Shown here piece by piece: positions 484 through 47,133 of a DNA stretch of 64,000 nucleotides. Position 1 is the stretch's first letter. Each line of letters opens with the position of its first letter. Location: NCBI RefSeq assembly GCF_018811945.1, contig NZ_JACRVU010000006.1:1-64000 (forward strand), given 5' to 3'. The notes under the pieces were generated by a model. That model was not told where the DNA came from, made no database searches, and was given only the letters and a program-made list of their open reading frames with translations. The DNA comes from Gluconobacter sp. P1C6_b (GTDB taxonomy: Bacteria; Pseudomonadota; Alphaproteobacteria; Acetobacterales; Acetobacteraceae). Position numbers and translations under genes: made by a program.

Positions 484-499
484 TGTTTCACGTGAAACA
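484..499. promoter_or_regulatory. parS: parS site (ParB-binding centromere), intergenic
   Basis: The 16-bp palindrome TGTTTCACGTGAAACA is identical to the widely conserved parS consensus. It lies between the stop of the DUF721 gene and the start of the Gly-rich gene. parA and parB are in the same window, so ParB probably nucleates here. Confidence 0.88.
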
Positions 500-19164: not shown

Positions 19165-19628
19165 GAACGACACGGTGCCCGAGCCGCTCCAAACCGTCAA
19201 TCCGGCGATATCACCACCAGGGCGAGACTTTTTAGCCATGCTAAAAACGCATATCGAGACATATCAATATGCACAAAACACATACTGGACCGCTCATGTA
19301 GGCTTTGTAGCAATATTCTGTAATGTGCTGGAAAACTGCCGTTTTTTGTATTCGAAAAGCAGCCGGAGGATTTCCGGAACGGCAGTGTAATTATTCGGTG
19401 AGCAGCCTCCCGCCCGGTTTCAGGGCAATCCCGCCCATCCCCTCACGGAAACGTCAGAAGCCGTGTTTGTCTTAAGCAATAAAATAGGCTCAGTAAGTTC
19501 TCATGCTGCCGGTGTCCGGTACTGAGTGGTGGATTGAGAGAACGAGGATTATCCCCCGTCCCTTTCAAGACTTCACAGGTCCAGAATATCACAGCGGAAA
19601 CAGTCTTTACAAAAAGGACAGTTGGATC
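19165..19628 (+). other. Gene-free upstream region of adhA
   Basis: About 460 bp without a convincing gene, noticeably AT-richer than its surroundings. It holds a perfect 9-bp inverted repeat ACTGCCGTT (19335-19343) / AACGGCAGT (19378-19386) enclosing a smaller hairpin, and an AT-rich stretch near 19470-19490 that could be a promoter. Expected to contain the regulated promoter of adhAB; no confident -35/-10 pair could be chosen. Confidence 0.4.
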
Positions 19629-21902
19629 ATGACTTCTGGTCTACTGACGCCGATCAAGGTTACGAAAAAGCGCCTTCTCAGCTGCGCCGCCGCTCTGGCG
19701 ATTTCTGCAGCTGTACCTGTCGCTTTTGCGCAGGAAGATACCGGCGCAGCAATCACGAGCTCCGATAACGGCGGCCATCCCGGGGACTGGCTCTCCTACG
19801 GCCGTTCCTATTCCGAGCAGCGCTACAGCCCGCTCGACCAGATCAATACGGAGAATGTCGGCAAGCTGAAGCTCGCCTGGCACTATGATCTGGACACGAA
19901 CCGCGGCCAGGAAGGCACGCCCCTGATCGTCAACGGCGTCATGTACGCCACGACCAACTGGAGCAAGATGAAGGCGCTGGATGCAGCGACCGGCAAGCTC
20001 CTGTGGTCCTACGATCCGAAGGTTCCGGGCAACATCGCCGACCGTGGCTGCTGTGACACGGTCAGCCGTGGCGCCGCCTACTGGAACGGGAAGGTCTATT
20101 TCGGCACGTTCGACGGCCGTCTGATCGCGCTCGACGCCAAGACCGGCAAGCTGGTCTGGAGCGTCTACACGATCCCCAAGGAGGCCCAGCTCGGCCACCA
20201 GCGGTCCTACACGGTTGACGGTGCCCCCCGTATCGCCAAGGGCAAGGTCCTGATCGGCAACGGTGGTGCAGAATTCGGCGCCCGCGGCTTCGTCTCTGCC
20301 TTCGACGCAGAAACCGGCAAGCTCGACTGGCGCTTCTTCACCGTTCCGAACCCCGAGAACAAGCCGGACGGCGCAGCCTCCGACGACATCCTGATGTCCA
20401 AGGCCTACCCGACCTGGGGCAAGAACGGCGCCTGGAAGCAGCAGGGCGGCGGCGGTACCGTCTGGGATTCGCTCGTCTATGACCCGGTGACGGACCTCGT
20501 CTACCTGGCCGTCGGCAACGGCTCGCCGTGGAACTACAAGTTCCGCTCCGAGGGCAAGGGCGACAACCTCTTCCTGGGCAGCATCGTCGCGATCAATCCT
20601 GACACCGGCAAGTATGTCTGGCACTTCCAGGAAACGCCGATGGACGAGTGGGATTACACCTCCGTCCAGCAGATCATGACGCTCGACATGCCGGTCAATG
20701 GCGAGATGCGCCACGTCATCGTGCATGCTCCGAAGAACGGCTTCTTCTACATCATCGATGCGAAGACGGGTAAGTTCATCACCGGCAAGCCCTACACCTA
20801 CGAGAACTGGGCCACCGGCCTGGATCCGGTCACGGGTCGCCCGAACTACGTGCCTGACGCCCTGTGGACCCTGACGGGCAAGCCCTGGCTCGGCATTCCA
20901 GGTGAGCTCGGTGGCCATAACTTCGCCGCCATGGCCTACAGCCCGAAGACAAAGCTGGTCTACATTCCGGCCCAGCAGATCCCACTCCTGTACGATGGCC
21001 AGAAAGGTGGCTTCAAGGCGTATCATGACGCCTGGAACCTCGGCCTCGACATGAACAAGATCGGCCTCTTCGACGACAACGATCCGGAACATGTCGCCGC
21101 CAAGAAGGACTTCCTGAAGGTCCTGAAGGGCTGGACGGTCGCCTGGGATCCGGAAAAGATGGCTCCGGCCTTCACGATCAACCACAAGGGTCCGTGGAAC
21201 GGCGGTATTCTGGCCACGGCCGGTAACGTGATCTTCCAGGGTCTGGCGAACGGCGAATTCCACGCCTACGACGCCACGAACGGCAACGATCTCTATTCCT
21301 TCCCCGCACAGAGCGCGATCATCGCTCCGCCGGTGACCTATACGGCCAACGGCAAGCAGTATGTCGCGGTTGAAGTGGGCTGGGGCGGCATCTATCCGTT
21401 CCTGTATGGCGGCGTTGCCCGCACCTCGGGCTGGACGGTCAACCACTCCCGTGTGATTGCCTTCTCGCTTGACGGCAAGGACAGCCTGCCGCCGAAGAAC
21501 GAGCTTGGCTTCACCCCGGTCAAGCCGGTTCCGACCTATGACGAGGCCCGTCAGAAGAACGGATACTTCCTGTATCAGACGTTCTGCTCGGCCTGCCATG
21601 GCGACAATGCGATCTCCGGTGGCGTTCTGCCTGACCTTCGCTGGTCCGGTGCTCCGCGCGGCAAGGAAAGCTTCTACAAGCTCGTTGGTCGCGGTGCTCT
21701 GACGGCCTACGGCATGGACCGCTTCGACACCTCCATGACGCCTGAGCAGATCGAGGATATCCGCAACTTCATCGTGAAGCGCGCGAACGAATCCTACGAC
21801 GACGAAGTCAAGGCACGTGAAAACTCAACTGGCGTTCCGAACGATCAGTTCCTCAATGTCCCGCAGTCCACGGCCGATGTTCCGACCGCGGATCACCCCT
21901 GA
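19629..21902 (+). CDS. adhA: PQQ-dependent alcohol dehydrogenase, quinohemoprotein subunit I
   Basis: AdhA oxidises ethanol to acetaldehyde in the periplasm, passing electrons to the AdhB cytochrome and on to ubiquinone. The 757-residue precursor has a signal peptide (ends FAQE), an eight-bladed PQQ propeller with repeated A-x-D-x-x-T-G-K-x-x-W docking motifs, the vicinal Cys-Cys pair (about residues 140-141, RGCCDTV) that sits over PQQ, and a C-terminal cytochrome c domain with CSACH (about 653-657). The ATG at 19629 has AAAAAGGA nine bases upstream. It is followed 29 bp later by adhB. This is the hallmark vinegar-type ADH. Confidence 0.97.
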   Translation: MTSGLLTPIKVTKKRLLSCAAALAISAAVPVAFAQEDTGAAITSSDNGGHPGDWLSYGRSYSEQRYSPLDQINTENVGKLKLAWHYDLDTNRGQEGTPLIVNGVMYATTNWSKMKALDAATGKLLWSYDPKVPGNIADRGCCDTVSRGAAYWNGKVYFGTFDGRLIALDAKTGKLVWSVYTIPKEAQLGHQRSYTVDGAPRIAKGKVLIGNGGAEFGARGFVSAFDAETGKLDWRFFTVPNPENKPDGAASDDILMSKAYPTWGKNGAWKQQGGGGTVWDSLVYDPVTDLVYLAVGNGSPWNYKFRSEGKGDNLFLGSIVAINPDTGKYVWHFQETPMDEWDYTSVQQIMTLDMPVNGEMRHVIVHAPKNGFFYIIDAKTGKFITGKPYTYENWATGLDPVTGRPNYVPDALWTLTGKPWLGIPGELGGHNFAAMAYSPKTKLVYIPAQQIPLLYDGQKGGFKAYHDAWNLGLDMNKIGLFDDNDPEHVAAKKDFLKVLKGWTVAWDPEKMAPAFTINHKGPWNGGILATAGNVIFQGLANGEFHAYDATNGNDLYSFPAQSAIIAPPVTYTANGKQYVAVEVGWGGIYPFLYGGVARTSGWTVNHSRVIAFSLDGKDSLPPKNELGFTPVKPVPTYDEARQKNGYFLYQTFCSACHGDNAISGGVLPDLRWSGAPRGKESFYKLVGRGALTAYGMDRFDTSMTPEQIEDIRNFIVKRANESYDDEVKARENSTGVPNDQFLNVPQSTADVPTADHP

Positions 21903-21931
21903 GGCAGCGGTTTGCATAAGGAGCACGTGAC

Positions 21932-23368
21932 ATGCTGAACGCATTAACTCGGGACAGGCTGGTATCTGAGATGAAACAGGGATGGAAACTCGCGGCCGCT
22001 ATCGGCCTCATGGCGGTGTCTTTCGGCGCCGCCCATGCCCAGGACGCCGATGAAGCCCTGATCAAGCGTGGCGAATATGTCGCCCGCCTGTCGGACTGCA
22101 TCGCCTGCCACACGGCCCTTCACGGACAGCCCTATGCGGGCGGTCTGGAGATCAAGAGCCCGATCGGCACGATCTATTCGACCAACATCACACCGGACCC
22201 GGAACACGGTATCGGCAACTACACCCTGGAGGACTTCACGAAGGCCCTCCGCAAAGGCATCCGCAAGGATGGTGCAACGGTCTATCCGGCCATGCCCTAT
22301 CCTGAATTCGCACGTCTGTCCGATGACGACATCCGTGCGATGTATGCCTTTTTCATGCACGGCGTGAAGCCGGTCGCCCAGCAGAACAAGGCACCGGACA
22401 TCAGCTGGCCGCTCTCCATGCGCTGGCCGCTGGGCATGTGGCGCGCCATGTTCGTCCCGAGCATGACGCCGGGCGTGGACAAGAGCATCAGTGATCCGGA
22501 AGTCGCCCGCGGCGAATATCTCGTCAACGGCCCGGGTCATTGCGGCGAATGCCATACGCCCCGCGGTTTCGGGATGCAGGTCAAGGCCTACGGCACGGCT
22601 GGCGGCAACGCCTACCTCGCCGGTGGTGCCCCGATCGACAACTGGATCGCACCGAGCCTGCGCAGCAACAGCGACACGGGTCTGGGCCGCTGGTCTGAAG
22701 ATGACATCGTCACCTTCCTCAAGAGCGGCCGTATCGACCACTCCGCCGTCTTCGGTGGCATGGCCGACGTGGTGGCTTACAGCACGCAGCACTGGTCCGA
22801 CGACGATCTGCGCGCTACGGCCAAGTACCTCAAGAGCATGCCGGCCGTGCCGGAAGGCAAGAACCTCGGTCAGGATGACGGTCAGACGACCGCTCTGCTG
22901 AACAAGGGTGGTCAGGGCAACGCAGGTGCGGAAGTCTATCTGCACAACTGCGCCATCTGCCACATGAACGATGGTACGGGCGTCAACCGCATGTTCCCGC
23001 CGCTGGCAGGCAACCCGGTCGTCCTGACGGATGATCCGACGTCGCTCGCCAATGTCGTGGCCTTCGGTGGCATCCTGCCCCCGACCAACAGCGCACCGTC
23101 CGCTGTTGCCATGCCCGGGTTCAAGAATCACCTCTCCGACCAGGAGATGGCCGATGTCGTGAACTTCATGCGCAAAGGCTGGGGCAACAACGCACCGGGA
23201 ACCGTGTCCGCTTCCGACATCCAGAAGCTGCGCACGACGGGTGCTCCGGTCTCCACTGCTGGCTGGAACGTCTCCAGCAAGGGCTGGATGGCTTACATGC
23301 CGCAGCCTTACGGCGAAGGCTGGACCTTCTCCCCGCAGACCCACACAGGCGTGGACGAAGCCCAGTAA
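21932..23368 (+). CDS. adhB: Alcohol dehydrogenase triheme cytochrome c subunit II
   Basis: This 478-residue precursor has a signal peptide ending AHAQD and three cytochrome c motifs: CIACH (about residue 56), CGECH (about 203) and CAICH (about 340). It is the membrane-bound subunit that takes electrons from AdhA and reduces ubiquinone in the cytoplasmic membrane. The ATG has AAGGAG eight bases upstream, and the operon adhA-adhB ends at a terminator. The small third subunit of this enzyme class is not encoded nearby, as is usual in Gluconobacter. Confidence 0.96.
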   Translation: MLNALTRDRLVSEMKQGWKLAAAIGLMAVSFGAAHAQDADEALIKRGEYVARLSDCIACHTALHGQPYAGGLEIKSPIGTIYSTNITPDPEHGIGNYTLEDFTKALRKGIRKDGATVYPAMPYPEFARLSDDDIRAMYAFFMHGVKPVAQQNKAPDISWPLSMRWPLGMWRAMFVPSMTPGVDKSISDPEVARGEYLVNGPGHCGECHTPRGFGMQVKAYGTAGGNAYLAGGAPIDNWIAPSLRSNSDTGLGRWSEDDIVTFLKSGRIDHSAVFGGMADVVAYSTQHWSDDDLRATAKYLKSMPAVPEGKNLGQDDGQTTALLNKGGQGNAGAEVYLHNCAICHMNDGTGVNRMFPPLAGNPVVLTDDPTSLANVVAFGGILPPTNSAPSAVAMPGFKNHLSDQEMADVVNFMRKGWGNNAPGTVSASDIQKLRTTGAPVSTAGWNVSSKGWMAYMPQPYGEGWTFSPQTHTGVDEAQ

Positions 23369-23494: not shown

Positions 23495-24808
23495 ATGATG
23501 CGCTCATCCCTTCCGGACGCCCCTGACACCACGCCACAGGTCATTTTTGCACTGGCCACGGGCCCATCCCGTGCGGCCATTGCGATCATGCGTGCCAGCG
23601 GGCCGGGCAGCGATACGATCCTGAAAGCTCTCTGCAACGGGCGCCTTCCGGAACCCCGCCGCGTCAGCCTGCGCACCCTGCGCCATGACGGAGAGGTGCT
23701 CGATCACGCCGTCGCCCTTTGGCTCCCCGGCCCCAACTCCTACACTGGCGAAGACGGCTTTGAACTGCATCTCCACGCAGGCCCCGCCATCATCGCCCGC
23801 GTCGCTGATGCCCTGACCGATCTGGGCGCCCGCCCCGCCGAACCCGGCGAATTCACTCGCCGCGCCGTGCAGAAGGGACGACTGGATCTGCTTCAAGCCG
23901 AAGCCATCGCCGACCTCGTGGACGCCGAAACCGAAAGTCAGCGCAAACAGGCACTCCGTCAGGCCGATGGTGCCCTGAGTCGCCTGTACGATGACTGGGC
24001 ACAGCGCCTGCGTCTCGTCCTCGCCCATCAGGAAGCCCTGATCGATTTCCCGGACGAAGAACTGCCACAGGATGTGGAAGACGGCCTGATCGAGGAACTC
24101 TCAAAGCTCCAGACCGAGATGTCCGCCCATCTTCAGGACAATCGCGGCGAACTCATGCGTCAGGGGCTGACCGTCGTGATCGCCGGCGCTCCAAATGTCG
24201 GGAAATCCAGTCTTCTCAATGCGTTATCCGGAACCGACGCCGCCATCGTCACCCATCGCGCCGGCACCACACGAGATGCCATCGCGCTCGACTGGGTTCT
24301 GGACGGCGTGCGCCTGCGCCTGATTGACACGGCTGGCCTGCGAGAGACGGAAGACGAAATCGAGGCCGAGGGCATCCGCCGCGCACTGTTTCACGTGAAA
24401 CAAGCCGACGTCGTGCTGCATCTGATCGGCCCGAATGAAAGTCTCGAATCCCTTTCCGGGCAGGAAATTCCCGTCCGGACGAAAATCGACATCGCGCCCA
24501 CGCCGCCCGGCATGTTAGGGATCAGCACACAGTCCGGCGAAGGCCTCGCTGCGCTGCGTCAGGTCCTGTCCGAACGGGTGGCAGAACTCATGGCCGGTTC
24601 AGCCGCACCTCCGCTGACCCGCGCCAGACACCGCGCTGGAATCCAGGAGGCCGCAACCCATCTGGAGCGCGCACGGACCGCAACCTGGCCGGAACTTCGG
24701 GGCGAAGAACTCCGCCTGTCCATGCTGGCCTTGGGGCGTCTGACGGGACGTGTTGATGTTGAATCCCTGCTCGATGCGATTTTCGGGCAGTTCTGTATCG
24801 GGAAGTAG
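23495..24808 (+). CDS. mnmE: tRNA modification GTPase MnmE
   Basis: MnmE works with MnmG to make the (carboxymethyl)aminomethyl modification on U34 of certain tRNAs. The 437-residue protein has the N-terminal folate-binding domain with EPGEFT, a helical domain, an inserted G domain with G1 GAPNVGKSS (about 230) and [10 protein letters not shown], and the C-terminal CIGK motif whose Cys takes part in catalysis. Tandem ATGs at 23495 and 23498 leave the exact start uncertain. A perfect parS site is embedded in the G-domain coding sequence. mnmG follows after 3 bp. Confidence 0.96.
24387..24402. promoter_or_regulatory. parS: parS site inside mnmE
   Basis: A perfect TGTTTCACGTGAAACA, read in frame as part of LFHVKQA in MnmE. 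It lies about 2.8 kb upstream of parA. Confidence 0.9.
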
Positions 24809-26668: not shown

Positions 26669-27246
26669 CCACCGTTTCACGTGAAACACATGAGAGGCTG
26701 GAGCGCTTTGCCGACCTGCTCGTGCAGTGGAACGCAAAGATCAATCTCGTCAGTCCACGTGACATCGCCCAGCTCTGGCCCCGTCATATCGAAGACAGCC
26801 TCCAGCTCGCGGAACTGATCCCCGAAGGCGCAACCATTACTGACCTCGGTTCGGGCGGCGGTTTTCCAGGCATTATTCTGGCTATCGCAACCGGAAACCC
26901 CGCCACCCTGATTGAATCGGACCAGCGCAAATGCGCCTTCCTGCGGGAAGCAGGACGCATCTGCGACGCAAAGGTCACGGTCATCGCCAAGCGTATCGAA
27001 GCCGCCAGCCCCCCTCCGGCCGACATCATCACGGCCCGGGCGCTGGCTCCTCTTAACAGGCTCCTCGAATGGGCACGGCCATTGCTGAAGGAAGACGGGT
27101 TCTGCCTGTTCCTGAAGGGTCAGAAGGCGCAGGCCGAGTTGACCGAGGCAAGCGCCGACTGGCACATGAGCCACACGATTATTCCCAGCCGCACCGACCC
27201 CGGCGGAGCCATCATCAAAGTCAGTGATTTCAAGCGTGTCGTCTAA
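26665..27246 (+). CDS. rsmG: 16S rRNA (guanine-N7) methyltransferase RsmG
   Basis: RsmG (GidB) methylates G527 of 16S rRNA. The 193-residue product shows the SAM-binding [10 protein letters not shown] motif (about 56-65), the RHIEDSLQL helix and KGQKA near the end. It overlaps the mnmG stop and the parA start, so the whole mnmE-mnmG-rsmG-parA-parB set is probably one operon. A parS-like palindrome lies over codons 3-8 (TVSRET). Loss of RsmG gives low-level streptomycin resistance in other bacteria. Confidence 0.95.
26673..26688. promoter_or_regulatory. parS: parS-like site at the start of rsmG
   Basis: CGTTTCACGTGAAACA differs from the 16-bp consensus only at the first base. It is in frame as TVSRET, a segment commonly seen at the start of alphaproteobacterial RsmG. 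It sits about 550 bp upstream of parA. Confidence 0.85.
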
Positions 27247-28039
27247 AACCGAATCTCCCACCACCCGGATCATTGCCGTCACCAACCAGAAGGGAGGCGT
27301 CGGCAAGACCACCACCACCATCAATCTGGCCGCGGGTCTGGCCCGTCAGGGACAGCGCGTCCTGCTCGTGGATCTGGATCCGCAGGGCAACGCCTCCACC
27401 GGCCTGGGCATCGACTACGACCAGCGCAACACCGGCACCTATGCCGCGCTGATGGTGGAAGCCGAGCCTCACGCCCTGCCCCAGCCGACCGAATTCGACA
27501 ATCTGGCGATCATCACCGCCAATAACGAACTGGCCGGTGCCGAGCTTGAGATGATCGGTGACGAGCGCCGCGAATACCGTCTGCGAGATGCCCTGCGCGC
27601 GCTGGAAGGCGATTACGACACTATCCTGATCGACTGCCCTCCAAGCCTCGGTCTGCTGACGCTGAATGCGCTGGTGGCTTCTGACAGCGTGATCGTGCCT
27701 CTGCAATGCGAGTTCTTCGCGCTCGAAGGCATCAGTCAGCTCGTCCGCACCATCGATCGCGTGCGCCGCGCCTTCAACGCCGATCTGCATCTCGAAGGCA
27801 TCGTTCTGACGATGTATGACCGCCGCAACAACCTGTCCGAACTCGTAGCGCAGGACGCACGCGGCTTCTTCGGCGATCAGGTGTTCGAAACGCTCATTCC
27901 GCGCAATATCCGCATTTCCGAAGCCCAGAGCCACGGCAGCCCCGTGCTGGACTATGACGCCCGCTCCACGGGTGCCATCGCCTATCTGGCGCTGGCGGAC
28001 GAACTGATCAAACGCAACAAGAACAAGGCAAAGGCGTAA
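27224..28039 (+). CDS. parA: Chromosome partitioning ATPase ParA
   Basis: ParA moves ParB-parS complexes to separate newly copied origins. The 271-residue protein has the deviant Walker A motif NQKGGVGKTTTT with its signature Lys, a DLDPQGNAS segment (Walker A') and IDCPPSLGLLT (Walker B). The start is GTG at 27224, inside the end of rsmG; another in-frame GTG at 27236 would remove four residues. Neither has a strong ribosome site, so translation may be coupled to rsmG. parB begins 6 bp after its stop. Confidence 0.95.
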   Translation: MISSVSSKTESPTTRIIAVTNQKGGVGKTTTTINLAAGLARQGQRVLLVDLDPQGNASTGLGIDYDQRNTGTYAALMVEAEPHALPQPTEFDNLAIITANNELAGAELEMIGDERREYRLRDALRALEGDYDTILIDCPPSLGLLTLNALVASDSVIVPLQCEFFALEGISQLVRTIDRVRRAFNADLHLEGIVLTMYDRRNNLSELVAQDARGFFGDQVFETLIPRNIRISEAQSHGSPVLDYDARSTGAIAYLALADELIKRNKNKAKA

Positions 28040-28045
28040 CCGGCG

Positions 28046-28921
28046 ATGGCCAAAAAGGACAGTTCCCCGCGGCTTGGTCGCGGCCTCGCGGCTCTTCTGG
28101 GTGATCAGGCGCCACAGCTCGCCCGCGCCACGCGCGCGAATGCGCAGCCTCAGCAGCATTCCTCCCTGCCGGTGGATGTTCTGGCGCCGAGCCCCTTCCA
28201 GCCGCGACAGGACATGAACCCCGAGCGCCTGTCCGAACTGGCCGATTCCATCCGCTCACGCGGCGTCCTACAACCGCTACTCGTCCGTCCCGATCCCGAA
28301 AAAGCAGGCCATTACCAGATCATCGCCGGCGAACGCCGCTGGCGCGCCTCACAGCTCGCAGGCCTGCACAGCGTCCCCGTCCATATCCGCGAACTGGACG
28401 ACACGGACGCCATGGCCGCCGCTCTGGTCGAGAACCTCCAGCGCGCGGACCTCAACCCGATCGAGGAAGCCGAGGGCCTGCAACGCCTGGTCACGGACTA
28501 CACCCTGACGCAGGAAGAACTGGCCGGTGCCGTGGGCAAGTCCCGCCCGCACATCACCAACACCATGCGCCTGCTCAACCTGCCGCCGGAAGTCCGCGCG
28601 CATGTCCGCAATGGCGAACTCACGGCCGGTCACGCCCGCGCCCTGCTGACGCACCCCGACCCGGTCGCCGCCGCAAAAAACGTCATCGCCCGTGGCCTCA
28701 ACGTGCGTCAGACAGAAGCCCTGACCAGCGGCAAAACTACCCTGACGCCGGCCAAAAAGGCACGGGACGCGGAAATCCTGCAGATCGAAAATGACCTGTC
28801 CTCCCGCCTCGGACTGAAAGTCCATATTTCCTACAATGGAAAAAAAGGTGGCTCCCTGAAGATCGATTACACCTCCCTGGAGCAGTTCGAGAGCGTCATG
28901 CGCCTGCTTAACCGCAAATAA
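28046..28921 (+). CDS. parB: Chromosome partitioning protein ParB
   Basis: ParB binds parS and spreads along DNA as a CTP-dependent clamp. The 291-residue product has an N-terminal ParA-activating stretch (RLGRGLAALLGD), the CTP-binding ParB/Srx domain with GERRWRAS (about 95-102) and ENLQRADLNPIEEAEG, a helix-turn-helix with VGKSRPHITNTMRLL, and a C-terminal dimerisation domain ending in RLLNRK. Its own targets, three parS sites, lie at 484, 24387 and 26673. Confidence 0.96.
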   Translation: MAKKDSSPRLGRGLAALLGDQAPQLARATRANAQPQQHSSLPVDVLAPSPFQPRQDMNPERLSELADSIRSRGVLQPLLVRPDPEKAGHYQIIAGERRWRASQLAGLHSVPVHIRELDDTDAMAAALVENLQRADLNPIEEAEGLQRLVTDYTLTQEELAGAVGKSRPHITNTMRLLNLPPEVRAHVRNGELTAGHARALLTHPDPVAAAKNVIARGLNVRQTEALTSGKTTLTPAKKARDAEILQIENDLSSRLGLKVHISYNGKKGGSLKIDYTSLEQFESVMRLLNRK

Positions 28922-42956: not shown

Positions 42957-44138
42957 TCAGCAGAACTCCCGCGCCGCACCATAGATATGATAAAGCGAAC
43001 TGGCCGGCACGTCCGGAACGCTCGCCTTACCAGACGCATCAAACCGGTCGATCCACAGAGCACGCGTGCTGTCAGGAATGAACGTCCCGAAGAAATGCTC
43101 CGTCAGGCCCCGCAGGATCTCCGGGTTCTCGTTCCGGCAGATCAGCAGGCGGCACAGCTCGGTCTGCGGCCAGATCCGCGTGGCGTTTTCCAGGGAGCGT
43201 CCATCATCCGCAATGGCATCCCGCACCGCAGTTCCCTGCCCTCCAGACCGCACTCCGTAACGCATCCCGAATGCGAATAGCCCATCCGCAGCCTGCCGGA
43301 TCGCTCCTCTATCCTGCGCCACAGGGTTCAGACGCAGATAATCCCCCAGCAGCCAGGACCATTCGAACAGATGCCCCGGCTCCACCCGGTTTTCTCCCGG
43401 AGCCGCCACCGGCCGCCAGTCCGCTCCGAACTCCTCGGGCAAGACCCCGGACCCCGGCTGGATCAGCCGCTCCAGCGCCAGACGCACCAGCGCCGTCGCC
43501 TCGTCCAGATAAAAGCTGTCCCCTGACACCTCGAACAACACCAGAAACGCCTCAAGCAGATGCATGTGCGGGTTCTGATGCCTTACAACTCCCGTAGCCC
43601 CACCCTCCGTCAGCAGCACTTCATCCAGAAATCCGCCATGCTCCGCCGCGAAGATCTGGTGAAGCTCCACAACCGTCTGCCGCGCCACCGCGAGGAAATC
43701 CGGATTGCCGCTCAACCGGTAAGCCCAGCCATAAGCAAAGAGAATGAAGGCATGCGCATAAAGATCGCGCTGCGTCCCGACCGGCGCCCCGTCGGGCGCC
43801 ACGGAAAAGATCCATCCCGCCTGACCGTCCCGATGCCGGTAAAGCCGCTCGACTTCCTCCAGACATGCCAGCGCCTGCGCCGAAGCATCATGCAGCCCGT
43901 CCAGCGCAGCCCGACAGAACGTCGAGATCTGCCGCGCCTGCACCATCAGGCGCGAGGCCGGCAGAACTAGCGGTTCTCCGGAAAATGTCAGTCGCTCATG
44001 ATAAAGGCACCGGCTGCGATCAAACCCGACGCCGCTCCATACCGGCAGCACCGTCCGCTTAAGCCAGCCGCTCCACAGCGCCCGCTGGTCAGCATCCATG
44101 AAGGTGAGCAAGGGGGCGTGTCGCGTTCCGGTCTGCAT
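42957..44138 (-). CDS. AGE-family sugar epimerase/isomerase
   Basis: This 393-residue cytosolic protein matches the N-acylglucosamine 2-epimerase superfamily (alpha6/alpha6 barrel). Conserved segments are RQNPHMHLLEA with its catalytic-type His, EPGHLFEWSWLL and the final SLYHIYGA. Members interconvert sugars such as mannose, fructose, glucose or cellobiose, so the activity may be mannose isomerase or a 2-epimerase. Start ATG 44138, with ATG 44099 as an alternative; neither has a good ribosome site. It follows tRNA-Ala on the same strand. Confidence 0.85.
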   Translation of the reverse strand: MQTGTRHAPLLTFMDADQRALWSGWLKRTVLPVWSGVGFDRSRCLYHERLTFSGEPLVLPASRLMVQARQISTFCRAALDGLHDASAQALACLEEVERLYRHRDGQAGWIFSVAPDGAPVGTQRDLYAHAFILFAYGWAYRLSGNPDFLAVARQTVVELHQIFAAEHGGFLDEVLLTEGGATGVVRHQNPHMHLLEAFLVLFEVSGDSFYLDEATALVRLALERLIQPGSGVLPEEFGADWRPVAAPGENRVEPGHLFEWSWLLGDYLRLNPVAQDRGAIRQAADGLFAFGMRYGVRSGGQGTAVRDAIADDGRSLENATRIWPQTELCRLLICRNENPEILRGLTEHFFGTFIPDSTRALWIDRFDASGKASVPDVPASSLYHIYGAAREFC

Positions 44139-44239
44139 CCGACTGCCGTATGAGAGCTGAACGCCCGCGTCAACAGATCGCGAGCTTGCTACGGCGGAGC
44201 TGAAACAGAAAATTCAGATTTTCAGGGAAAAAGGGAAAC

Positions 44240-44315
44240 TGGTGGAGCCAATCGGGATCGAACCGACGACCTCCTGAATGCCATTCAGGCGCTCTCCCAA
44301 CTGAGCTATGGCCCC
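44240..44315 (-). tRNA. tRNA-Ala (anticodon GGC)
   Basis: A complete 76-nt cloverleaf on the minus strand. The acceptor stem pairs GGGGCCA with TGGCTCC (one G-T pair), followed by A and encoded CCA. The anticodon loop ATGGCAT carries GGC, and the T loop TTCGATC is standard. Confidence 0.97.
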
Positions 44316-44358
44316 ACATGTTTCAAGCGGCCCCTTTGGGACGGGGCCGGATGAGGGC

Positions 44359-44387
44359 GGTATATCGTCATGATTTCGCCCTGACAA
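44359..44387 (-). promoter_or_regulatory. Promoter of tRNA-Ala
   Basis: On the minus strand TTGTCA and TATACC are 17 bp apart, placing transcription start about 37 nt before the tRNA. Confidence 0.6.
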
Positions 44388-44405
44388 GCCTGAAAAACAG
44401 ATTTT

Positions 44406-45017
44406 TTAGGCCGCAAGGACCTTCAGTTCCCGCAGTTCCTCCAGCAGCGGCAACAGCGGTAGTCCCATCACGGCATCCTGCGCCCCCTCGACAGCCGAAA
44501 AAAGCTGTATCCCAGACCCCTCGAGCCGATACGCCCCCACACAGGACAGGATCGCTGGCCCTTCCCGCTCCAGATAGGCCTTCAGAAAGTCGTCAGAGAA
44601 ATCCCGTATGGTCAGGCGCGGCGACGCCAGATGCTCCCAGACCTTCTCGCCCCCCTTATAGAGAACGACAGCCGTGCGCAGGACATGCGTCCGCCCCCGC
44701 AGCCGGCGCAGATGCTCCGCCGCCTCGGCCACAGACCCCGGCTTGGCAAACGCAACGCCATCCAGATCGAGGATCTGGTCCGCCGCGACCGTCAGTTCAT
44801 CGAACCCCGTATCCCGCGTCGCAAGGTTGGCTTTCGCATCCGCCAGCGCGATGGCCGTTTGGGAAAGCGTATGCCCCTGCTCTTCGCAGGATCGCCGCAG
44901 CGCCTCCTCGTCGAGATCGACCGGTCTGACCTGCACGGCCAGCCCCGCATTTTCGAGCAGCATGCGCCGGGCCGAAGAGCCGCTGGCAAGAATGAGGGAA
45001 GTACTGAAAGACATCAT
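44406..45017 (-). CDS. maf: Maf-like nucleotide pyrophosphatase
   Basis: Maf proteins hydrolyse non-standard or excess nucleoside triphosphates and affect septum formation. The 203-residue product has the LILASGSSARR N-terminal motif, the catalytic-region VAADQILDLDG and SCVGAYRLEGSG, with the E-G-x-G end of the family. Tandem ATGs at 45017 and 45014 leave the start open. It points away from hemE across the probable replication origin; in many alphaproteobacteria maf and hemE flank oriC. Confidence 0.93.
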   Translation of the reverse strand: MMSFSTSLILASGSSARRMLLENAGLAVQVRPVDLDEEALRRSCEEQGHTLSQTAIALADAKANLATRDTGFDELTVAADQILDLDGVAFAKPGSVAEAAEHLRRLRGRTHVLRTAVVLYKGGEKVWEHLASPRLTIRDFSDDFLKAYLEREGPAILSCVGAYRLEGSGIQLFSAVEGAQDAVMGLPLLPLLEELRELKVLAA

Positions 45018-45370
45018 GAAGTACGACTCCGTACTATCGACTGTTGGAACAGGGACGAGTACTGCGGATCACCCGGTGAAGAGATTGCGTCAGTACTGGG
45101 GTACATGGGGATAGTACCTGCCCTTGCGAAAGGAGTACCGAGTACCGTGGATTGTACGGTACACCAGCCGGAACTGGGGGTTGTACACAGGCTCTCTGTG
45201 GGCAATTCGGGATTGAATCAACGACTCCCTTGCAAAGTGCGGCTTCTGGAGTTGTACACAGTGTGAGTAAGACGGGGTACATTTTCAGAAAGCCGGGTAC
45301 CCCGGTATCCACAGGGATCATCTTAACCTCCAGCATTTCTTTCTTTTTTCTTTTATGATTAGTGGGCGGC
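45018..45370. other. oriC: Probable chromosomal origin of replication (oriC)
   Basis: The 353-bp gap between divergent maf and hemE holds no gene. It contains two identical DnaA-box-like TTGTACACA (45181-45189, 45252-45260), a third near-box GTATCCACA (45305-45313), a possible reverse one (45197-45205), an AT-rich, pyrimidine-biased tract (45321-45360) that could unwind, and 14 GTAC palindromes. Three GANTC sites are also present. The maf-oriC-hemE order is established in several alphaproteobacteria. Not proven by function. Confidence 0.7.
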
Positions 45371-46432
45371 ATGATTTCGGAAAACGCACCTTCCTCACCC
45401 TCGTCGAAACCGCTTCTGCGGGCCCTCCGTGGTGAAGCCGTCTGGCCGCCTCCGGTCTGGCTCATGCGTCAGGCAGGCCGATATCTCCCCGAATTCCGCG
45501 CCATGCGTGACAGGGCCGACTTCCTGACCCGGTGCATGACCCCGGACATGGCCACCGAGCTGACGATTCAGCCGATCCGCCGCTACGGCATGGACGGTGC
45601 CATCCTGTTTTCCGACATCCTGATCCTGCCCTGGGCCATGGGTCAGTCCCTTGAATTCATTGACGGACGCGGTCCCGTGCTCGGCGCCATCCGCTCCGAA
45701 GCTGACCTCGCCAGACTGGACCCCAAACGCGTACAGGATGTCGTCGCTCCAGTGCGGGAAACCTTGTCCCGCCTCACAAAAGAGCTTCCGGACGTCACCA
45801 CACTTCTGGGCTTCGCAGGCAGCCCGTTCACGGTCTCGTGCTACATGGTTGAGGGCGGCGGATCGCGGGATTTCGCCGAAACCCGCCGCATGATGCAGAC
45901 CAACCCGGCCCTGTTCGATCGCCTGATCGATACCCTGACCTCGAGTACTGCCGAGATGCTCTGCGGCCAGATTGAAGCCGGCGCGGAAGCCGTGATGCTC
46001 TTCGATTCCTGGGCCGGAATCCTGCCGCCTTCTGCTTTCCGCCGCTACGTGATCGAACCGACGCGCCAGATCGTCGAGTACATCCGTGCCCGGCATCCCA
46101 AAACCCCGATCATCGGTTTCCCGCGTCTTGGCGGCATCATGGTTCGCGAATATGCGCAGAAAACCGGCGTCAACACGCTCGCTCTCGACACTGTTGCCGA
46201 CCCGGCCCAGATCTCCGAACTGGTCTCCGAAGTCCGCCCCGGCCTGACGCTTCAGGGCAACATGGATCCCATGATCCTGTTTTCCGGCGGCGAGACAATG
46301 GTGCGCGAAGCCCAGGCCATTCGTGACGCGATGCGCGGAAAACCGCATGTTTTCAACCTCGGTCACGGCGTCATGCAGCACACGCCACCTGAAAACGTGG
46401 CGGCCCTCGTCGAGGCGGTACGCTCGGTATGA
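45371..46432 (+). CDS. hemE: Uroporphyrinogen decarboxylase
   Basis: HemE converts uroporphyrinogen III to coproporphyrinogen III in haem synthesis. The 353-residue protein shows WLMRQAGRYLPEFR near the N-terminus, the catalytic-region LFSDILILPWAMG, GFAGSPFT and GNMDP. I chose ATG 45371; a GTG nine bases upstream is in frame. It overlaps the HAD gene (ATGA), which in turn overlaps hemJ, making a haem-linked operon next to the origin. Confidence 0.96.
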   Translation: MISENAPSSPSSKPLLRALRGEAVWPPPVWLMRQAGRYLPEFRAMRDRADFLTRCMTPDMATELTIQPIRRYGMDGAILFSDILILPWAMGQSLEFIDGRGPVLGAIRSEADLARLDPKRVQDVVAPVRETLSRLTKELPDVTTLLGFAGSPFTVSCYMVEGGGSRDFAETRRMMQTNPALFDRLIDTLTSSTAEMLCGQIEAGAEAVMLFDSWAGILPPSAFRRYVIEPTRQIVEYIRARHPKTPIIGFPRLGGIMVREYAQKTGVNTLALDTVADPAQISELVSEVRPGLTLQGNMDPMILFSGGETMVREAQAIRDAMRGKPHVFNLGHGVMQHTPPENVAALVEAVRSV

Positions 46433-47133
46433 CAACCGCTCTGGACCCGGCAGGCCAGCTGAAACTGGTCATTTTCGACTGCGATGGCGTTCTCGTGGAC
46501 AGCGAAGGCCCGTCCTGCCGGGCCACGGCGGAATTCGCCCGATCCAAGGGGCTGTCCATTTCGGATGATGAGGCGCATAAGCGTTTTGCAGGCAAGGCCC
46601 TGCCGCAGATCGTGACGGAACTCGAGCAGGAACTCGGGCATTCCCTGCCGGAAGAAACGGCATTCAGATTGCGCGAAAATCTCGTACAGATGATGCGAAA
46701 AAGCGCAGAACCCGTAAGCGGAGCGCTCGAAATGCTGGCAGGCGTCCGGTCTTTGGGAATGCCGGTTCGCGTCGGCTCGAATTCTTCCGTCCGCGAGATG
46801 GAAGCCAAGTTCGAGCGTACCGGAATGTCGCAGTATTTCCCCGAAAACCGCATCCATTCCGCCAATGACATGGGCTGCCCCAAACCCGCTCCGGACGTCT
46901 ATCTGTACGCCGCGAAGGCCGAAGGTGTACTGCCAGAAAACTGTGTCGTCATTGAAGACAGTAATACCGGTGCGGAAGCTGCCTGGAAGGCTGGAATGGC
47001 CTGTGTGCTTCTTCGCCCCGAGGATGTGCCCCTGCCCTCGTTCTGGCCTGTCGAAGGCTCCGTCCGCATCACGCATCTGGACGAGCTGGTACCCCTGCTG
47101 CGCCGGACGCTGGAAAGCCAGAAACACACATGA
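46429..47133 (+). CDS. HAD-superfamily hydrolase (phosphoglycolate phosphatase-like)
   Basis: This 234-residue enzyme has the HAD motif I FDCDGVLVDSE (about 16-26), motif II VGSNSS, motif III Lys in CPKPAPD and motif IV EDSNTG. It is a subfamily IA phosphatase or phosphomutase like Gph, CbbY or YieH; the substrate is unknown. It overlaps hemE upstream and hemJ downstream by 4 bp each, so it is co-translated with haem genes, although a direct role in haem synthesis is not implied. Confidence 0.87.
   Translation: MTTALDPAGQLKLVIFDCDGVLVDSEGPSCRATAEFARSKGLSISDDEAHKRFAGKALPQIVTELEQELGHSLPEETAFRLRENLVQMMRKSAEPVSGALEMLAGVRSLGMPVRVGSNSSVREMEAKFERTGMSQYFPENRIHSANDMGCPKPAPDVYLYAAKAEGVLPENCVVIEDSNTGAEAAWKAGMACVLLRPEDVPLPSFWPVEGSVRITHLDELVPLLRRTLESQKHT

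Follow-up and report, generated by a model that had tools for sequence, protein, structure and literature searches.

Does the short gap between maf and hemE in Gluconobacter sp. P1C6_b act as the chromosomal origin of replication, and if so, what would time its firing? The gap lies in a 64,000-nucleotide stretch of DNA (the window) and spans 353 bp (45018-45370) between maf on the minus strand and hemE on the plus strand, as determined by reading the sequence and by Pfam matches. A sequence-only reading had called it a probable oriC, citing two copies of TTGTACACA, one of GTATCCACA, an AT-rich tract beside hemE, the maf/hemE context, and nearby partition genes. The gap and the three boxes are all present as claimed (Table 1). 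Both words occur only on the plus strand and are absent from the rest of the 64 kb on either strand, and none of 2000 dinucleotide shuffles of the gap produced two copies of TTGTACACA. The three sites are conserved but divergent from TTATCCACA, and are best described as putative boxes; for the TTGTACACA sites, this reading depends on what we take to be the DnaA-box consensus. GGGGAT and GTGGAT words at 45101-45117 and 45142-45157, bracketed by GTACs, resemble reversed weak DnaA boxes. The tract beside hemE is pyrimidine-rich, but its AT content is only 62% over 45316-45370, and the 25 AT-richest 60-mers of the 164-kb contig all lie elsewhere. TTAA-N7-TTAA, the CtrA site of the Caulobacter-type Cori, does not occur in 44001-46500. 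Three GANTC sites, presumably of the CcrM type, are found in the gap at window positions 45025, 45215, and 45223.

The parAB genes and three parS sites were also recovered where the earlier reading had placed them, with the parS sites assigned by a 16-mer consensus that we take to be that of parS. Between ogt and mnmE, the window carries two further ORFs (799 and 478 aa, at 19503-23368); the regions fetched from the genomes G104, G030, and G023 gave no counterpart of either.

Table 1. Coordinates of the features discussed, in window positions unless a contig is given.
Feature	Position	Strand	Basis or remark
maf (PF02545)	44406..45017	-	Pfam
GTAC cluster	45001..45300		15 sites, 14 in the gap plus 45001
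Proposed oriC (maf-hemE gap)	45018..45361		Comparison across genomes and skew
TTGTACACA, DnaA-like box with internal GTAC	45181..45189	+	GTAC kept in 106/106 other elements
Second TTGTACACA, DnaA-like box	45252..45260	+	Mostly inside the search motif, so conserved across the 106 by construction
Weak inverted DnaA-like box TTACTCACA	45262..45270	-	Two mismatches to TTATCCACA
GTATCCACA, DnaA-like box	45305..45313	+	One mismatch to TTATCCACA
Pyrimidine/AT-rich tract adjoining hemE	45335..45361	+	Candidate unwinding element
hemE (PF01208)	45362..46432	+	Pfam; ATG start probably at 45371 (second start)
parS, perfect 16-mer	484..499		Presumed consensus
parS, perfect 16-mer	24387..24402		Presumed consensus
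parS, one mismatch, within the gidB reading frame	26673..26688		Presumed consensus
parA and parB	27224..28921	+	
Solitary PF01555 methyltransferase of the window's genome, directly after mltA	G000:C13:48597-49415		ORF reading

The earlier reading missed a dense cluster of GTAC in the gap, and with it the link to a methyltransferase. The sites start at 45001, 45021, 45031, 45059, 45093, 45101, 45114, and 45135, and then at 45142, 45154, 45159, 45183, 45254, 45277, and 45297. Dinucleotide shuffles of the gap gave a mean of 2.2 GTAC and a maximum of 8 (2000 shuffles) versus 14 observed; the next densest 350-bp stretch of the 64 kb has 4, and the 64 kb as a whole has 72 versus 98 expected from trinucleotides. 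When the whole genome was searched for three chained GTACs, 11 of the 23 forward hits fell at the maf-hemE gap, which is the densest such run of the genome, and the others comprised four in a single run (C39:267-362) and eight across six other places. Two conserved GTACs sit inside the TTGTACACA boxes. When all sites are pooled, their flanks are weakly constrained, and a 4-bp palindrome with such flanks suggests a methylation target.

The first sample used to assess conservation comprised 60 Acetobacteraceae sequences from upstream of hemE, picked mostly for similarity of HemE. Most acetic-acid-clade genomes in this sample have a dense GTAC cluster at the junction, deeper lineages of the family lack it, and G089 is intermediate. 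With six further genomes and the window included (67 genomes), 31 acetic-clade genomes, the window's own among them, have between 6 and 15 GTAC within the 400 bp upstream of hemE. The 33 elements gathered without a search motif contain TTGTACACA in all cases (33/33), GGGTACCCC in 29, and GGGGTACRTTTT in 25, and among the rows listed in the element alignment a TATCCACAGG-type box and the pyrimidine tract are also present. A motif from the right half of the element retrieved 109 stretches in named-genome contigs, a scan that may omit records of the window's own genome. Among the matches listed, 80 of 80 records are Acetobacteraceae by title, and the listed genera include Acetobacter, Gluconobacter, Gluconacetobacter, Komagataeibacter, Novacetimonas, Asaia, Bombella, Saccharibacter, Commensalibacter, and others. 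A detected hemE lies within 400 bp of the element in 95 of the 109 stretches, and none was detected in the other 14.

An alignment over 410 bp held 107 elements: that of the window plus 106 of the 109 retrieved, as three lay too near a contig end to be included. Nine GTACs are kept in at least 87% of the 106 others (45093, 45101, 45114, 45135, 45142, 45183, 45254, 45277, and 45297); 45254 and 45277 are part of the search motif and kept by construction, and the other seven are free of it. Mean conservation across the 106 elements is 0.67 for the 15 GTACs of the window versus 0.22 for other tetramers, with six of the 15 kept in just 12-39%, and the median count per aligned element is 13. In the Gluconobacter loci compared, the cluster is retained with 13-16 GTAC. 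The window's genome is close to G. oxydans within Gluconobacter: its HemE matches that of G. oxydans NBRC 14819 at 98-99% and that of G. aidae at 100% (partial match).

Two methyltransferase groups were rejected as partners of the cluster. The strongest PF01555 match, presumably CcrM by a motif we take to be characteristic of it, occurs in 25 of 25 genomes, including cluster-free ones, and is therefore not specific; PF02086 (Dam-type) enzymes are patchy, occurring in 13 of the 25. The PF01555 search also retrieved a second, shorter enzyme in the 18 of these genomes that bear the cluster. This beta-class enzyme is about 270-345 aa long by open frame, with an invariant TSPPYN motif and a DPF(M)G(T)GT motif in 30 sequences, and TSPPY points to N4-methylcytosine (m4C) as its probable product. 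N4-cytosine enzymes are among the solved structures closest to it. NCBIfam offers no fitting equivalog, with PRK11524 and CcrM scoring best below threshold, and the best PADLOC model, the type II methyltransferase family PDLC03295 (261-267 bits), carries no specificity and also matches in 8 of 14 control genomes.

The enzyme gene is directly preceded by mltA in G023, per Pfam, and in the window's genome, per ORFs read within 1.5 kb. Its Pfam neighbors in G023 are MltA, Tim44, a MauG-type peroxidase, and Smr, with the peroxidase gene and then smr following the enzyme; a similar peroxidase-like ORF follows it in the window's genome, and in G118 a Smr-like ORF, identified by eye, directly follows. 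Both tim44 and secB lie near the enzyme gene, and no restriction gene was recognised in the neighborhoods read (by Pfam in G023 and by ORFs elsewhere). In four deep genomes (G062, G009, G098, and G059), the enzyme is encoded 5-9 kb from hemE. Its divergence tracks that of the HemE N-terminus (Mantel r = 0.75 over 30 genomes, reached by 0 of 1000 permutations), and it is mostly passed on vertically.

GTAC is the presumed target of this mltA-linked methyltransferase. In archaea, the persistent orphan GTAC methyltransferases HG10 and HG18 yield m4C (PMC10609329); the present enzyme is likewise solitary and its TSPPY fits m4C, but HG10 and HG18 are archaeal, and the passages cited give them no role at origins. 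The H. pylori GTAC enzyme is described as a gamma-class m6A enzyme (PMC3936762). No methylome for acetic acid bacteria was found in the literature searched.

Enzyme and element occur together. At an identity of at least 51%, an ortholog of the enzyme is found in 60 of 120 genomes of the family, including every one of the 34 acetic-clade genomes in which a cluster was recognised (at hemE in 31, moved in 3). Among 200 genomes of the order, all of one family, and with the element counted at up to two mismatches, the two occur together in 106, the enzyme alone in 13, the element alone in none, and neither in 81; related genomes are not independent, so a Fisher value for this table overstates the evidence. 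Matches at three mismatches only were obtained in G181, which has the enzyme, and in G236, which does not, and both were taken as chance; the reversed motif gave chance matches at a similar rate. The 13 enzyme-only genomes include deep lineages as well as G001, which has a variant cluster of 6 GTAC. Upstream of hemE, GTAC is the most enriched of the 16 palindromic 4-mers in 32 of 46 enzyme-positive genomes and in 0 of 21 enzyme-negative ones. Outside the acetic-acid clade this association is weak, since 12 deep enzyme-positive genomes have 1-6 GTAC before hemE, versus 0-3 in the 21 enzyme-negative genomes.

We considered whether the GTACs are instead sites of an unknown protein or of a DnaA of altered specificity, with methylation irrelevant and with enzyme and cluster both retained as old core features. 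Two of the GTACs do belong to DnaA-like boxes, the enzyme's GTAC specificity is presumed, and given its vertical inheritance, shared ancestry alone could yield the 200-genome table. Nevertheless, the weakly constrained flanks of the pooled sites fit methylation rather than a longer protein site, and the deep enzyme-positive genomes are somewhat richer in GTAC than the enzyme-negative ones. Joint absences also count against it: G061 and G027 lack the enzyme, a cluster at hemE, and any motif match elsewhere, and G102, labeled with the genus of G027, has neither the enzyme nor, at the hemE locus covered, the cluster. G102 has 10 chained-GTAC hits and may carry a moved cluster. A HemE tree of 53 rows, G027 not among them, groups G061 and G102 next to Commensalibacter and within the cluster-bearing clade. 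This implies loss, although their exact place is weakly supported (89/52) and the branches are long. On balance, we consider this explanation unlikely. Genome-wide GTAC depletion was dropped as evidence of methylation: the observed/expected ratio is 0.54-0.68 in three cluster genomes and 0.92-0.94 in G061 and G102, yet four further genomes without the enzyme span 0.30-0.89, with small counts.

In G104 and G030 (one genus) and in G090, the element lies 20-26 kb from hemE, and only 204-265 bp, holding 0-1 GTAC, are left between maf and hemE. The gene order corresponding to 0-84 kb of the window's contig is otherwise largely kept in G104 and G030, where the element sits between the counterparts of the genes at 13.5-14.6 kb (minus strand) and 15.5-17.0 kb (plus strand). 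The maf/hemE context invoked by the sequence-only reading is the weaker argument for an origin, because the element can be elsewhere. The old maf-hemE gap of G090 (L018, G090:C12 near 63073) retains three one-mismatch DnaA boxes and, with its GTAC element now 20 kb away, is possibly a relic origin.

Strand skew was examined in 11 regions of usable length, the window's own included (G118 and G090, with 20 kb only, were left out); as the GC walks cover fetched regions around the element, their minima are local. Four minima lie within 0.8 kb of the element, two at 2.8-3.0 kb, two at 8-14 kb, and three at 30-39 kb (Table 2). The switch thus falls at the element in several lineages, and in 4-kb samples from G173 the skew is -0.074 on one side of it (-5 kb) and +0.050 on the other (+5 kb), with a more gradual rise in G204 (-0.037 at -18.5 kb, +0.003 at -4.5 kb, and +0.058 at +5.5 kb). 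In G030 and G104, the minimum accompanies the element and not hemE. No other single observation speaks as strongly for an origin, though it counts as one event since the two genomes are of one genus.

Table 2. Distance from the local GC-walk minimum to the element.
Genome	Distance (kb)	Remark
G049	0.08	80 bp; same genus as G114
G114	0.31	311 bp; same genus as G049
G030	0.66	659 bp; element displaced from hemE
G104	0.75	751 bp; element displaced from hemE
G117	2.8	
G064	3.0	
G055	8.1	
G042	14.4	
G023	30.3	
Window's genome	37.2	164-kb contig
G020	39.0	

For the window's own genome, the expectation of a skew minimum at the gap failed. Skew is negative on both sides of the gap, as it is at third positions of genes on both strands, and the minimum of the 164-kb contig (G000:C56), itself a local one, is at 82,194, where a sharp gene-level switch occurs near 82.0 kb, beyond the window. 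By eye, this switch is close to a tRNA-like sequence. At each of the 12 loci on the G. oxydans side that have more than 500 bp of hemE, the window's included, the sense-strand third-position skew of hemE is negative. It is weakly positive in thailandicus, japonicus, cerinus, and Gdi (+0.06 to +0.18), and of the 87 loci in all, 30 have a negative value, other genera included. As the reversal is common to the G. oxydans clade, misassembly of the window's genome does not explain it. An inversion containing the origin would retain the sign change there and was rejected as the cause. An origin long displaced in the clade would fit, as would an inversion beside the origin followed by re-formation of skew and back-inversion.

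The same data raise the question of whether the G. oxydans clade starts replication near 82 kb of the contig, about 37 kb rightward of the gap, leaving the cluster as a regulatory or DnaA-titrating site and the true origin only in other genera. The sharpness of the switch at about 82.0 kb, the reversed skew of the whole block up to the cluster, and the clade-wide reversal of hemE skew speak for it. However, the 82-kb place has no GTAC cluster and no AT-rich stretch, with a single weak box (TTATCCCCA at 82877), and 13-16 GTAC are kept in the Gluconobacter clusters. Coarse sampling around the whole chromosome, carried out for G023 and G042 only, placed the G023 switch at 1.84 Mb, 30 kb from the cluster on its single contig, and at genes different from those at 82 kb. 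DnaA boxes and GTAC were searched at both switches (82 kb and G023 1.844 Mb), and AT-rich stretches at 82 kb only, with nothing convincing found. We regard an origin at 82 kb as improbable.

That the gap is an ordinary hemE/maf promoter region, with the true oriC near dnaA as two Acetobacter genome papers place it (PMC3751514 and PMC13209655), is highly improbable, given that the cluster moves without maf and hemE and so is not a promoter of either, that the dnaA locus of the window's genome has no GTAC cluster and a whole-sequence skew of about zero (+0.005 and +0.002) against a weak third-position change in the origin direction (-0.041 to +0.051), and that the sampled G023 switch lies 30 kb from its cluster. 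GC skew at dnaA was set aside as a deciding measure, being about zero in the whole sequence and too weak at third positions.

That the maf-hemE gap carries a putative origin element is well supported by the conserved module, the DnaA-like boxes, and the skew switch that in G030 and G104 goes with the module. We further consider it probable that the gap serves an acetic acid bacterium as its chromosomal oriC and is gated by GTAC methylation. DnaA would bind the TTGTACACA and TATCCACA-type boxes and open the pyrimidine/AT tract beside hemE, and the GTAC words would be targets of the solitary methyltransferase encoded elsewhere. Passage of the fork would leave the boxes hemimethylated, a direct timer. 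With GTACs inside TTGTACACA and around the GGGGAT and GTGGAT words, hemimethylated new origins would bind DnaA, or a GTAC reader protein, differently until remethylated, giving a Dam-like delay against re-initiation without SeqA. GTAC methylation, DnaA binding, initiation, and delay at the gap are inferred, and acetic acid bacteria may time replication by a chemical mark of their own. More tentatively, we propose both that this clock is a solitary GTAC (m4C) methyltransferase whose target lies in the DnaA boxes and gates DnaA, and that the origin module of about 300 bp jumps tens of kb without its flanking genes, leaving zones of old skew behind.

In E. coli, a 4-bp palindrome recurs roughly twelve times among the DnaA boxes of oriC, within 250-300 bp, and the gap has a similar palindrome density mixed with DnaA-like boxes. 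Unlike the Dam/SeqA system, the word is GTAC and not GATC, the mark is probably m4C and not m6A, the enzyme is of PF01555, and SeqA (PF03925) was found in 0 of 5 genomes, whereas E. coli, run as a control, gave a match. The element resembles the Caulobacter Cori in lying beside hemE, but differs from it in having no TTAA-N7-TTAA, in its GTAC cluster, in having no PF03618 gene in the gap, and in being able to leave hemE. A PF03618-like kinase/pyrophosphorylase gene adjoins the Caulobacter Cori, and the deep Acetobacteraceae genome G009 has a similar PF03618 gene between maf and hemE (L247:7602-8465, minus strand).

Clusters of orphan-methyltransferase motifs at putative origins were described by Blow et al. 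2016 for GATC (Dam), TTAA (Arthrobacter), CTCGAG (Nocardia), and CTAG (Haloarchaea) (PMC4752239). As in those clusters, a solitary methyltransferase in the acetic-acid clade is paired with a dense short palindrome at a conserved, non-coding putative origin, and the cluster is tied to the enzyme. The present case differs in the motif GTAC, in the acetic acid bacteria as hosts, in the GTACs inside DnaA-like boxes, and in a putative enzyme target. GTAC, Acetobacter, and Gluconobacter do not appear in the main text of Blow et al. (PMC4752239), so as far as that text goes, the kind of system is known and the gap would be a further member. On GTAC methylation or the oriC of acetic acid bacteria, the literature searched, which left most subscription journals outside, gave nothing on point. 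If the proposed reading is true, it adds a methylation-gated origin with the methylation site inside a DnaA box, and the gap would correct the map of an industrial and symbiont group whose published Acetobacter predictions, those cited above, put oriC near dnaA. The hopping of the bare element would also allow two questions to be studied in natural experiments, namely what makes a sequence an origin and at what pace strand skew is re-established.

The C39 run of chained GTACs (G000:C39:267-362), which lies at a contig end, has six GTAC in 96 bp amid TTCAGGGTGAACACT-like repeats; it is looser than the gap cluster and possibly represents plasmid iterons.
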